DNA of 64,000 bases from positions 62,001 through 126,000 of the forward strand of contig NZ_FXUE01000001.1 in NCBI RefSeq assembly GCF_900182935.1, given 5' to 3'. The notes under the pieces are model-generated. The model did no database searches, was not told the origin of the DNA, and saw only the letters and a program-made list of their open reading frames with translations. Position numbers and translations under genes: made by a program. This DNA is from Fibrobacter sp. UWB10 (GTDB lineage Bacteria > Fibrobacterota > Fibrobacteria > Fibrobacterales > Fibrobacteraceae). Positions 38,850 to 42,982 of this stretch are shown here, piece by piece; the stretch's first letter is position 1, and each line of letters opens with the position of its first letter.

Positions 38850-38935
38850 TGCCGTGAATTTTCGTAAAAAAATTGAAATTATCGGATAAAACAAGCAAAA
38901 AACAGCACCTGTTATCACACTATTTTGCCCCTCGG

Positions 38936-38964
38936 TTGCAAGGGTATAGTCATTTATATATATT
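38936..38964 (+). promoter_or_regulatory. Promoter of the lipoprotein/radical SAM operon
   Basis: TTGCAA (38936-38941) and TATATT (38959-38964) are separated by 17 bases. The leader RNA of about 25 bases ends in AAGGGAG before the first ATG. It is divergent from the trpE promoter. Confidence 0.6.
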
Positions 38965-38995
38965 CGTTTCCGAGACACTTAGAAGGGAGAACTGT

Positions 38996-39535
38996 ATGTT
39001 CTACAAGCATTGGAAAAAGATTGCACTCGCACTAACCGGTTTTTTCTGGGCAAGTTGCGACGACTCTGCCTCATCGGCCGTATGCCTTTATGGCCCGGAT
39101 CCTAACTACAGTAATCCCGCCGAGAACCCGACATCCAGTTCTTCTGAAGCTGTCAAGCCCGAAAGTTCCAGCAGCAACGATTTTGACAAAATGATGCCGC
39201 TATACGGTGTCGAAATGGACAAAACGGTATGTACCCAGATTAAGGGCGAACCTACAATTACCTGCGAAGACGGAACTGTCTGCACGCAAAAAACCGAAGA
39301 GCGTTGGGGCAATCTTCCTTGCAGCGATGACATCTGCCCCGCTTACGGCGTGGTACAAATTTCTGAAAACACCTACGAATGCGACGGCAAGGTCTACAAC
39401 GAAGCTGAATTCCGCGCTCGATTCGGAAAAATAACTGTAGTCGAGGAACCTCAAGATACCTTATTCACACAAGAACCCGTCCTTTATGGTCCACCTTGCG
39501 TATTCGACGGCACATGCGACGACGAAAAGGAATAG
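38996..39535 (+). CDS. Radical SAM-associated lipoprotein paralog 1
   Basis: The ATG at 38996, after an AAGGGAG site, gives a 179-residue lipoprotein. The export signal is MFYKHWKKI...FFWASC with lipid Cys at residue 21 and an unusual Trp at the lipobox -3 position. A Ser-rich segment (SSSSEAVKPESSSS) follows. Four Tyr-Gly motifs are present: LYGPDP at residues 31-36, LYGVE, AYGVV and LYGPPC near the end, along with several Cys pairs. It is the first of five tandem paralogs ending with a radical SAM gene. I infer that it is a substrate or partner of that enzyme; the modification is unknown. Confidence 0.75.
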   Translation: MFYKHWKKIALALTGFFWASCDDSASSAVCLYGPDPNYSNPAENPTSSSSEAVKPESSSSNDFDKMMPLYGVEMDKTVCTQIKGEPTITCEDGTVCTQKTEERWGNLPCSDDICPAYGVVQISENTYECDGKVYNEAEFRARFGKITVVEEPQDTLFTQEPVLYGPPCVFDGTCDDEKE

Positions 39536-39559
39536 AAGTCGATAATCAGGGAACCAGCC

Positions 39560-40144
39560 ATGTTTTACAAGCACTGGAAAAAAATCGCTCTTGCTCTGGC
39601 CAGTTTTTTCTGGGCCAGCTGTGGTGGCGATGGCTCCAGCGAAGAGATTTCAGCAGTTCAAGCTAATCCCAGTCTTTATGGGGTAATAGGTCCCATAGAG
39701 AATGATTCCAGTGATGTTACATTCTCTTCTAGTTCGGTAGAAGAAAGTTCCAGCAGCGATTTCATTTTGATAGCTCTTGACTATGGCGTTCCATACGATC
39801 CTGACGACAGAGACACTATATACACAGACCAAACACTCTGTTTTAACGATTCTGTGCAAAATGTCGAAGGCAGGGTGTTCAAGATTATCGACTGTATTGA
39901 CGGCAACAAGTACTTGCGAAATCCAGGCGACGCCGGGTCCGAAGGCGTAGAACTCCCCGAAGGAATCCAGGTTTTCGCCCCGAAGGCAGGCAGCGAAAAA
40001 GCTCCCAACTGCACCAGCGACCAAGATATCTGCATTGAACGCGACCCATCAAAGCCGATTGAACAGGATTCACTTGCAGGCTGCCACCCCATTATTAACT
40101 GCCCCGCAAAGCCAGATGATACAACCTTTATTAAGGTGGAATAA
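39560..40144 (+). CDS. Radical SAM-associated lipoprotein paralog 2
   Basis: A 194-residue lipoprotein with the same export signal (MFYKHWKKI, FFWASC, lipid Cys21). The Ser-rich spacer (SSSSVEESSSSD) lies between two Tyr-Gly motifs, SLYGVIGP starting at residue 38 and LDYGVPYDPDD after the linker. The C-terminal part has six Cys in two loose clusters. It starts 24 bases after paralog 1. It differs from the others in its C-terminal domain, so only the signal, linker and Tyr-Gly motifs are shared. Confidence 0.75.
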   Translation: MFYKHWKKIALALASFFWASCGGDGSSEEISAVQANPSLYGVIGPIENDSSDVTFSSSSVEESSSSDFILIALDYGVPYDPDDRDTIYTDQTLCFNDSVQNVEGRVFKIIDCIDGNKYLRNPGDAGSEGVELPEGIQVFAPKAGSEKAPNCTSDQDICIERDPSKPIEQDSLAGCHPIINCPAKPDDTTFIKVE

Positions 40145-40177
40145 ACATCCGTCAAAAGACCTTAGGAGAAAATGAAG

Positions 40178-40906
40178 ATGTTCTACAAACACTGGAAAAA
40201 AATCGCCCTCACGCTGACCGCCCTATTCTGGGCAAGCTGCAGCGAAACTCATGAAGAAGCCGTTCTTTACGGGTGTCCTCCGGATGATTGCTATGATGAG
40301 CCCGAAAGTAGCGATTCAAACAATGATGAATCCAGTTCTAGCGAGAAAACTATTTCGTCAAGTTCTGAAACAGCAAGTTCAAGTTCCGAGACTTCCAAGC
40401 CCGAAAGTTCCGAGACCGCGAATACAGAAAGTTCCAGCAGTGAATCAATCGAGACCGAGTCAAGTTCTAGTGAGGCAAAGTCCAGTTCCAGCGAAATTAC
40501 ATGCGTTCCCCTAGATTCCACTGTATCCTATTTTACTGATGATTACAACGAAGATCTAGAAAAATTGTGGAGTAAGCAAGCCGCCCAGCACGATGCCGCA
40601 AAAAGGATTGACTCCATCAAGACCACCCTGGCAGAAACGCCCATGTGCCTCGAAAACTTGCGCATGGAACTCGAGCGTTTCGTGGCACTTTACGGCGCAC
40701 CGATTGACATCAAAAACGCAGTAGACTCTTGCAGCGACGGCACCATCAGGCCTAGCGAAGAATATGCCAAGTTCCTGAAGATGCAGGAAGAGTGGGAAGC
40801 GAACAAGCCCGCTCTAGACGCAGAATGCAAGAAAGTCTACGAAGACAAGCTGAAAGAAATCGAAGCCCGAATCAACAAATGCCTTTCCGGCGAAACTGAA
40901 GAATAA
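40178..40906 (+). CDS. Radical SAM-associated lipoprotein paralog 3, long Ser/Glu linker
   Basis: I prefer the ATG at 40178 because the AGGAG site is 9 bases upstream; an in-frame ATG at 40172 is too close. The 242-residue product has the shared signal (lipid Cys21), LYGCPPDDCYDEP at residues 30-42, then about 65 residues of SSSSE/KPES-type linker. The C-terminal domain is helical and charged, with four Cys and another LYGAPID. The helical tail (residues about 180-240) resembles no family I know. The linker would hold this domain away from the membrane. Confidence 0.72.
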   Translation: MFYKHWKKIALTLTALFWASCSETHEEAVLYGCPPDDCYDEPESSDSNNDESSSSEKTISSSSETASSSSETSKPESSETANTESSSSESIETESSSSEAKSSSSEITCVPLDSTVSYFTDDYNEDLEKLWSKQAAQHDAAKRIDSIKTTLAETPMCLENLRMELERFVALYGAPIDIKNAVDSCSDGTIRPSEEYAKFLKMQEEWEANKPALDAECKKVYEDKLKEIEARINKCLSGETEE

Positions 40907-40908
40907 TC

Positions 40909-41229
40909 ATGTTCAAGAAACATTGGAAAAAAATTCTTCTAGGCCTGTGCACGCTGTTTTGGGGTGGATGCAGCGACGATTCGGTACCCCTTTACGGAAC
41001 CCCGCAGGTCGCTTGTGAATTAGACCACATGTGGAGTGACGAGTGCGGCACCACATCCAATATCGTATGCACGGACACCTACTATTGTAAAGACAAAGTT
41101 GTCTGTTTCAAGCAATATGAAGGGAAAAACGCGACCTTTGACTGTCGCGATGAACTGGGCAACAAGACTACCTATACCGAAGACGAATTCAACTCATTAT
41201 ACTATGTTGAAAGCGAACGCATTCACTAA
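40909..41229 (+). CDS. Radical SAM-associated lipoprotein paralog 4, short
   Basis: A 106-residue lipoprotein with signal MFKKHWKKI...FWGGC (lipid Cys21), followed at once by VPLYGTPQVACELD. It has no Ser linker. The C-terminal 60 residues hold paired Cys in a YYC-x-DKVVC-x(10)-C pattern and end EDEFNSLYYVE, closely like paralog 5. It begins 2 bases after paralog 3. This is the minimal form of the group: lipid anchor, one Tyr-Gly motif and one Cys-rich domain. Confidence 0.75.
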   Translation: MFKKHWKKILLGLCTLFWGGCSDDSVPLYGTPQVACELDHMWSDECGTTSNIVCTDTYYCKDKVVCFKQYEGKNATFDCRDELGNKTTYTEDEFNSLYYVESERIH

Positions 41230-41245
41230 CTTTAGACGAGGAAAA

Positions 41246-41608
41246 ATGTTCTACAAGCATTGGAAAAAAATTGCACTGGCTTTTACCGCCCTGTTCTGGG
41301 CCGGATGCGGCGATGATTCGTCAAGCGACAGCAAGGAGCTGGTTGCCTGCGACCTGCAGCAAATGTGTCCCGAATACGGCGTCGCCGGTTATTCTTGCGA
41401 TGACGGCTTTTACGGAGACGATAACGGTCAGAACTGCACCTTCATTCCAGCACCAACATGTTCCAAATATTATCAATGCGAAGACAATGTAACTTGTTGG
41501 GCTAATGAAGGTGATACTGTTCTAAATTGCTCCGACAAGCAAGACAAAGACTTTTCAATCAATGAAAATGATTTTAATTCAAAATATTACGTAAAGGAAA
41601 ACGAATGA
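41246..41608 (+). CDS. Radical SAM-associated lipoprotein paralog 5
   Basis: From the ATG at 41246 the product has 120 residues with the shared signal (FWAGC, lipid Cys21). The Tyr-Gly motif here is CPEYGVAGYSC at residues 41-51. The C-terminal domain (YYQCEDNVTC...C...ENDFNSKYYV) is homologous to paralog 4 and ends in the same FNSxYYV pattern; the last residues of paralog 1 (NEAEFRARFG) may be a distant version. The stop overlaps the radical SAM start by ATGA, which ties at least this member to the enzyme. Confidence 0.76.
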   Translation: MFYKHWKKIALAFTALFWAGCGDDSSSDSKELVACDLQQMCPEYGVAGYSCDDGFYGDDNGQNCTFIPAPTCSKYYQCEDNVTCWANEGDTVLNCSDKQDKDFSINENDFNSKYYVKENE

Positions 41609-42681
41609 AGCTCTCTCTCAAAAAGAAACTCGCTCTCGAAGCATATCGCCTTTACCGCCACAACGAAATCAAGGCACACCCGCTTACGTACTTTTTCTGG
41701 GAATGCACGCTCCGCTGCAACTTGCACTGTCTGCACTGCGGTAGCGACTGCGTGAAAGACGCCATTCCCGATATGCCCCGCGAAGATTTTATGAATGTGC
41801 TGGACAAATTGGCCCCGCACATCGACCCGAAGCATTTTATCGTGGTGATTACCGGCGGCGAACCCTTGATGCGCCAGGACCTTGAAGAATGCGGCATGGA
41901 AATCAAAAAACGCGGTTACCCCTGGGGAATGGTCAGCAACGGCCTTGCGATGACCCCCGAACGCTACACCAAGCTGCTGAATGCAGGGCTCCGCTCACTC
42001 ACGATTAGCCTGGACGGCCTCAAGGAAAGCCACAACCATTTCCGCGGCGCCCCCACGAGTTTCGATAACGCACTCCGCGCCATCGACATGGCCGCCCACA
42101 CGCAAGGCCTCACCTTCGACGTGATGACCTGCGTGAACCGCCAGAACTTGAAGGAGCTCCCGAAGATTCTTGACATCCTCCTGAAAATCGGCGTAAAGCG
42201 CTGGAGAATCGCGACGGTGTTCCCGAAGGGCCGCGCCAAGGACAATCCGCTGTTTCAGCTCACCAACCAGGAATTCCGCCAGGTATTCGACTTTATCCGC
42301 GAAGTCAAGAAACTGAACGTCATCAACGTGAACTACGGCTGCGAAGGATTCCTCGGCAGCTACGAAAAAGACGCCCGCAACTACCCGTTCTTCTGCCGTG
42401 CCGGCGTGAACGTGTCCTCTGTGCTTTGCGACGGTAGCATTTCGGCATGCCCGAGCTTACGCGGCGACTACATACAAGGTAATATTTACAAGGACGACCT
42501 CTGGGACGTATGGCAGAACCGCTATCAGGTGATGCGCGACCGCAGTTGGGCAAAAATCGGCGACTGCAAGACTTGCAAATACTGGCGCTACTGCGAAGGC
42601 TCCAGCCTGCATCTCCGTGATGAGAAAACGAAGGAATTGGCTTACTGCCACGTAAAGCGTTTGGAAGACGCAGGCGCATAA
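41605..42681 (+). CDS. Radical SAM/SPASM protein of an rSAM/lipoprotein system
   Basis: The 358-residue enzyme has the radical SAM cluster motif C-x3-C-x2-C at Cys38, Cys42 and Cys45 (RCNLHCLHCGSDC), the GGEPLMR strand that binds SAM, and a SPASM-like C-terminus with Cys264, Cys275, Cys282, Cys321, Cys324, Cys330 and Cys348 for auxiliary clusters. SPASM enzymes often modify peptides or proteins (sulfur-to-carbon or carbon-carbon links, sometimes on Tyr). Its family seems to be the one databases call rSAM/lipoprotein, known from Bacteroides and uncharacterised. It is the last gene of the operon, overlaps paralog 5, and a duplicate of its last 18 codons lies downstream. Confidence 0.85.
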   Translation: MKLSLKKKLALEAYRLYRHNEIKAHPLTYFFWECTLRCNLHCLHCGSDCVKDAIPDMPREDFMNVLDKLAPHIDPKHFIVVITGGEPLMRQDLEECGMEIKKRGYPWGMVSNGLAMTPERYTKLLNAGLRSLTISLDGLKESHNHFRGAPTSFDNALRAIDMAAHTQGLTFDVMTCVNRQNLKELPKILDILLKIGVKRWRIATVFPKGRAKDNPLFQLTNQEFRQVFDFIREVKKLNVINVNYGCEGFLGSYEKDARNYPFFCRAGVNVSSVLCDGSISACPSLRGDYIQGNIYKDDLWDVWQNRYQVMRDRSWAKIGDCKTCKYWRYCEGSSLHLRDEKTKELAYCHVKRLEDAGA

Positions 42682-42862
42682 GAAAGTTCTATCCCTCACA
42701 AATGCGTAAGGCGAGCGTCGCGACCAAGTTTACTTGGGCATGACCGAGCCTAGCATTTAACGCCGTTGGCGTTCGTGGCTGCGGTTATGCCATATCTGAA
42801 TACAAGTATTCAGCTGCGTCATAACCTTGCACACTTTTGGTACTTGAGCGAAGCGAAAGTAC
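42682..42862 (+). repeat. Hairpin-rich intergenic element between the two radical SAM 3' ends
   Basis: This stretch holds nested palindromes: CCAAG-TTTA-CTTGG, CGCC-GTT-GGCG, and GGTTATG...CTGAATA-CAAG-TATTCAG...CATAACC. The CAAGTTTACTTG core with a GAGCG-nGC flank also occurs inside the insertion at 56266-56344. No ORF of note lies here. It looks like a small repeat element that separates the true and duplicated 3' ends. Confidence 0.5.
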
Positions 42863-42864
42863 AA

Positions 42865-42921
42865 AAGACCAAGGAACTCGCCTACTGTCATGTAAAGCGT
42901 TTGGAAGACGCCGGCGCATAG
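42865..42921 (+). pseudogene. Duplicate of the last 18 codons and stop of the radical SAM gene
   Basis: These 57 bases encode KTKELAYCHVKRLEDAGA and a stop, identical in protein to residues 341-358 of the radical SAM enzyme at 42625-42681. The DNA differs at eight codons (counting the stop), all synonymous. The piece has no start of its own and cannot be expressed as such. It is the remnant of a second, diverged copy of the gene. Confidence 0.8.
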
Positions 42922-42955
42922 GCAAAAAAGATTTCAATCACCTGAAAAAAGCAAG

Positions 42956-42982
42956 AGCCGCACCCTATGGGTGCGGCTTTTT
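42956..42982 (+). terminator. Terminator after the radical SAM operon
   Basis: AGCCGCACCC (42956-42965) and GGGTGCGGCT (42969-42978) form a perfect 10-bp stem with a 3-base loop, then TTTT. It stands after the duplicated 3' end. From 42983 to 43171 I see AT-rich sequence with no gene; a TATTAT -10-like hexamer lies 8 bases before the next ATG. Confidence 0.85.

Follow-up and report, generated by a model that had tools for sequence, protein, structure and literature searches.

The window, the whole stretch of 64,000 nucleotides from Fibrobacter sp. UWB10 that was analysed here (contig NZ_FXUE01000001.1, positions 62,001 to 126,000), carries an intact radical SAM/SPASM gene that matches the family TIGR04133 (41605..42681); this gene and the parts of the locus from copy 1 to the terminator-like site, described next, lie on the forward strand. 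The last 18 codons and the stop of the gene (copy 1, 42625-42681) recur at an offset of 240 bp (copy 2, 42865-42921). Both copies translate to KTKELAYCHVKRLEDAGA followed by a stop, and they differ in eight codons or nine nucleotides, including the stop (TAA/TAG), all synonymously. Copy 1 is followed by a 16-nt spacer (42682..42697), which is the same in genome G060, and by the long form of a hairpin element with the right end GTACA (about 42699..42863). This element is composed of a first hairpin, H1 (42699-42759), an extra module (about 42759-42836) and a last hairpin, H3 (42840-42862). A hairpin followed by a T run (42953..42981), the terminator-like site of the original gene, is still found 3' of copy 2. 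Five tandem small lipoprotein-like ORFs (..FYKHWKKIAL..) are located upstream of the radical SAM gene (38873-41608); the two that were searched had no Pfam or NCBIfam match, and the lipoproteins to which the family name rSAM_w_lipo alludes could be these five.

The duplicate, to which an earlier note on this DNA had drawn attention, is real: when nine substitutions were placed at random, the peptide stayed unchanged in none of 200,000 trials. A 20-nt identical run is located within the two copies, away from the junction. If 240 bp (42625-42864) are removed, the window aligns continuously with the uninterrupted locus L040 from another species (genome G003), from the end of the gene past its stop, across the 3'UTR with its terminator hairpin and on towards spoT. 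This one uninterrupted relative is the empty-site comparison for the radical SAM locus, and UTR stretches matching the window were identified by BLAST in L039 and L040. The removal thus restores continuity with the UTR and terminator of L040, which identifies copy 2 as the displaced original gene end. The insert, which spans 42624..42863 with ends ambiguous by about one base, consists of copy 1 as a replacement end, the spacer and the hairpin element, and it leaves the gene intact. The claim of the earlier note that both versions diverged in functional genes holds, since all nine differences are synonymous and copy 2 with its UTR aligns with uninterrupted relatives. The same alignment with the uninterrupted ends bears out its suggestion that a homologous allele provided the present 3' end while the old end stayed behind. 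The sequences lent no support to copy 2 being a short gene of its own under selection.

Between the two copies lies an interspersed repeat of rumen Fibrobacter, which has many relatives elsewhere in this genome and a single copy in the window. With a typed 86-nt form as the query, matches were obtained in 59 of the 61 Fibrobacter genomes searched (E up to 0.001), and an exact scan of the GTDB representative contigs for a 24-nt pattern from the left half of the element recovered 34 stretches, all titled Fibrobacter or Fibrobacterales. Among the matches listed, we selected at least 115 distinct and nearly full-length copies, excluding those starting after position 5 or ending before position 70; the long element in the window does not belong to this set, since its match breaks at position 61. 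The extra module of the window (42759-42836) was also found with another right end at L002-L005. No Rfam family matched the element above its gathering score, and two sub-threshold matches were located on the opposite strand, beyond the element. In an alignment of 89 distinct elements, H1 (columns 2-62) and H3 (columns 64-84) keep their pairing despite changes on both sides, and several of the pairs tolerate G-U. These paired changes and the G-U tolerance point to a structure that acts as RNA or as single-stranded DNA.

The element copies have a preferred position and orientation. Fifty-eight of the 115 are located on the same strand and at most 45 nt past the stop codon of an ORF that is 90 codons or longer, and four on the opposite strand, versus 27 and 61 of 575 random points in the same loci; because related species share loci, these are not counts of independent events. 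The left border is GA in 99 of the 115 copies among the matches listed, and CA in the copy in the window. A MITE would have terminal inverted repeats and a target duplication; the two ends of the element, CAAATGC and GTACA, are not inverted repeats of each other. Simple insertions of the element inside partial copies of valS show no duplication (the junction lies between GGA and AATC). Direct repeats of about 7 nt occur at many other copies; they are part of heptamer arrays and could be older than the insertion. Such arrays, of degenerate AGTAGGA, AAGACGA and AATGTGA types, flank both sides of many copies without a displaced gene end (L105, L120, L122, L129, L093 and L160). A scan for ORFs across the joined flanks flagged 17 of the 115 loci as potential insertions within genes, none of which was by eye clearly a disrupted gene. 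A non-coding element derived from IS200/IS605 would have a fixed left flank, terminal hairpins and no target duplication; observed here were the GA flank in 99 of the 115 copies, the hairpins and the lack of duplication in partial valS. No matching transposase was found in genome G000, whose sole Y1 transposase gene does not have element-like ends.

The unit of replacement end and element was identified at four genes, namely the radical SAM gene and three others that we take to be valS, a putP-like sodium/solute symporter gene and prmA, as judged from reading the proteins rather than from a family search. Read by eye, six distinct sites have GA as the last two bases of native sequence ahead of the right junction, with GATGA in the radical SAM gene, CAAGA and AACGA in valS, GAAGA and GTGGA in the symporter gene and GGCGA in prmA. 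The four genes thus share one anatomy at six different points of insertion, and at each the right end of the element follows a GA and adjoins native coding sequence. The idea that the hairpin element between the copies is a scar has to be abandoned, since the element is a structured repeat distributed across the genus and has the same layout at three other genes.

The four genes emerged when the 115 loci were scored for how well the C-terminus of the upstream gene is repeated just past the element. Twenty-four of the 58 same-strand gene-end copies reached a score of at least 38, and the other 34 are without a displaced end. For mismatched pairs, some of which possibly represent the same gene, this cut falls above the 95% and below the 99% point, and it was reached by none of the 132 element-free ortholog ends. 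For the four genes, 167 distinct 3' ends of orthologs were collected (at most 30 loci per search), from which five were dropped for having too little downstream sequence. In 30 of the remaining 162, an element starts no more than 60 nt past the stop and is followed by another gene end; the other 132 lack both features, and no end shows just one of them. The proportion of 30 in 162 is not a frequency, since some of the orthologs entered the set through the element itself. An element without a displaced copy, or a displaced copy without an element, would have shown up in this set. The number of independent events is about six rather than 30, since the units at each gene may descend from a single event.

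Stacked units were observed in L091 and L073, in the order gene, element, copy, element, copy, and a partial valS copy in L295 likewise ends in a unit. In several genomes a displaced partial valS is located about 2-2.6 kb past the full-length valS, behind a conserved hairpin motif (ATATAGCCCGACC..GAACGCC) that was found in 13 of 344 loci, mostly at valS. This layout is seen at L293 (1780-5419) and L296 (5042-7450), and also at L291, L298, L303 and L295, and by eye the ORFs in the intervening segment resemble toxin-antitoxin, PIN and small lipoprotein genes. We consider these valS loci to have the same anatomy with cargo.

Comparisons between genomes indicate that the replacement ends, here called patches, are foreign and travel together with the element. 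In both valS groups and the symporter group y1 (10 of 10 pairs), identity between genomes is 0.94-1.00 for the patch and 0.99-1.00 for the element, versus 0.84-0.91 for the 80 nt before the junction and 0.70-0.86 for the displaced copies. In the symporter group y2 (six pairs), the patch (1.00) and the element (0.99-1.00) are accompanied by flanks that are also highly similar (0.95-0.99 before the junction and 0.92-1.00 for copy 2). The signal of a patch and element more alike than their flanks is weak in the radical SAM group (15 pairs), with identities of 0.76-1.00 for the patch, 0.75-0.95 for the preceding 80 nt and 0.69-0.96 for copy 2. Most patches are far from the displaced copy next to them (identity 0.63-0.86). 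Furthermore, prmA has several C-terminal types in the genus, and L142 and L268 each combine a patch of one type with a displaced native end that belongs to a different type.

Some individual loci retain traces of how the units were joined. The window and G060, which belong to the same species, are nearly identical from the patch to spoT, whereas the gene itself has an identity of 0.81-0.97 by segment, which places a recombination breakpoint at the patch. In L071, the patch matches the displaced copy over about 30 nt before the two diverge, a pattern that fits a left crossover inside the patch. A patch-type end is present without an element in L036, and this could reflect loss through recombination between the two copies or, equally, a donor type. 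The symporter locus provides no clean empty site, since G000, which has the unit, and G060, which is of the same species and does not, differ over the whole 3' region.

The units have a fixed right end joined after GA, carry a functional replacement end and are shared between species. The explanation that we favor, and consider probable, is that a non-coding insertion unit supplies the end of the gene it enters and spreads by homologous recombination. The 240-bp unit would combine the non-coding hairpin element with a version of the gene's 3' end that is of foreign origin, with the right end set by a site-specific insertion step at GA, catalysed by a putative enzyme, and the left side joined by homologous recombination within the gene. 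The transferred DNA would thereby bring in the element together with a functional, synonymously different gene end. As judged from the sequence, the gene would read through intact and the displaced end would persist as a silent duplicate. An existing unit has homology on both sides, in the gene body and in the displaced copy, so that ordinary recombination could carry it between Fibrobacter species, and recombination might also remove the unit and leave a mosaic gene end. The empty site, the co-occurrence of element and second gene end in 30 of 30 cases, the shared identity of patch and element, the GA borders, the breakpoint relative to G060, the stacking and the patterns in L071 and L036 all support this explanation. 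The weak signal in the radical SAM group, the CA at the left border in the window and a perfect 39-nt repeat in L132 count against it, as do the searches of G000, which yielded no enzyme, and the low number of about six independent events.

One alternative, which we regard as unlikely but worth keeping in mind, is homing without an encoded protein. As a structured agent of RNA or ssDNA, the non-coding element would copy itself along with the 3' end of the transcript that it terminates or follows and would enter the same gene in other cells, with the right end at GA and the left end determined by homology. The strand bias (58 versus 4 of 115), the paired and G-U-tolerant hairpins and the stacked units fit this scheme. 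G000 has no RVT_1 match, that is, no reverse transcriptase, which disfavours the RNA version in that genome.

We also find it unlikely that two separate insertions occurred, one inside the coding sequence and one just past the stop in another strain, and that a crossover inside the element then rescued the gene. Both borders look like simple insertion sites at GA, simple insertions exist in partial valS copies, and 34 of the 58 same-strand gene-end copies are without a displaced end. However, neither precursor was seen among the 162 ortholog ends of the four genes, and the scheme requires the disruption of valS, which is an essential gene.

Rather improbable, in our view, is a long target-site duplication, in which the insertion duplicates 20-125 bp, the survivors are those whose duplication spans the stop, and later recombination between species makes the copies diverge. 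The perfect 39-nt repeat around the element in L132 would be explained by such a duplication without any foreign DNA, and a perfect 26-nt repeat in L130 and the direct repeats of about 7 nt that accompany many further copies point in the same direction. Yet the insertions in partial valS have no duplication, the short repeats belong to heptamer arrays that could already have existed before the element arrived, and the divergence of most patches from the displaced copy is strong.

That the unit is a remnant of a larger integrase-type island that lost its interior seems very improbable. The anatomy is identical to that of prophage e14 in icd, and several genomes have the 2-2.6 kb cargo before the displaced part of valS, but the compact element has both ends and paired hairpins at many unrelated loci, and independent deletions would not yield the same 86 bp. 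We give practically no credence to the other proposal in the earlier note, a collapse of two tandem radical SAM genes into one: tandem paralogs are present in some relatives, but the paralog ends compared mostly end in AGV or have ELMYCHV, versus the AGA end here, copy 2 continues into the UTR and terminator of the ortholog, and the identical layout recurs at other genes.

Short structured repeats near gene ends are well known in the form of the REP/BIME repeats, which have RAYT transposases. The Fibrobacter element resembles these in size, structure and position; unlike them, it has no Y1 transposase with matching ends in G000, and we rejected a REP/RAYT link because the only Y1 gene there is without matching repeat ends. 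To our knowledge, REPs do not carry gene ends.

The lambdoid prophage e14, which resides in icd of E. coli K-12 (icdA/icdC), brings along an alternative 3' end, and the displaced one is found on the far side of the prophage. The two ends differ by 12 SNPs, 10 of them synonymous, and e14 is excised by site-specific recombination at 11-bp repeats (PMC4759930). The Fibrobacter unit likewise makes the gene whole again, with the original end located past the insert, but it is only 140-240 bp long, is gene-free, occurs in many copies per genome and has four host genes. In the mobile ORF elements (mORFs) of fungal mitochondria, for example those in atp6, atp9, cox2 and nad3, an in-frame foreign C-terminus comes first, followed by the element and finally by the native C-terminus; mORFs have passed from species to species and encode LAGLIDADG or GIY-YIG homing endonucleases (PMC3630166). 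The Fibrobacter element also has a foreign C-terminus upstream and a native one downstream, although weakly so in the radical SAM group; unlike the mORFs, the unit encodes nothing and its host is bacterial. No ORF of at least 80 aa was found inside the 140-240 bp units, which are without an integrase or homing endonuclease gene. Large islands that carry integrases are reported to use dusA or the 3' end of trmE as their insertion site (PMC8409611), and the Fibrobacter unit similarly targets the end of a conserved protein gene but is small and integrase-free. In searches of the open-access literature, we found no account of such an element in Fibrobacter or of non-coding gene-end patches.

Prophages and the mitochondria of fungi already provide examples of mobile DNA that repairs the gene into which it inserts, and these encode a dedicated enzyme. 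In Fibrobacter, the same anatomy is seen with a non-coding element of less than 250 bp, at housekeeping genes such as valS and prmA and across a bacterial genus. If our interpretation is correct, the unit represents a tractable case of selfish DNA that enters coding sequences at no apparent cost, and it would explain mosaic synonymous variation at gene ends. It would also be a warning that what looks like the tail of a pseudogene can be the end that the gene had at first.

Finally, we considered a hairpin common to the patches and rejected it. Folding revealed a strong hairpin in one valS patch (z -5.3) and in a prmA patch (z -3.1), and none in the other five patches folded. The hairpin in the valS patch of L008, L065, L069 and L070 is long and near-perfect and extends over the coding end and the UTR, and this patch still encodes the C-terminus.
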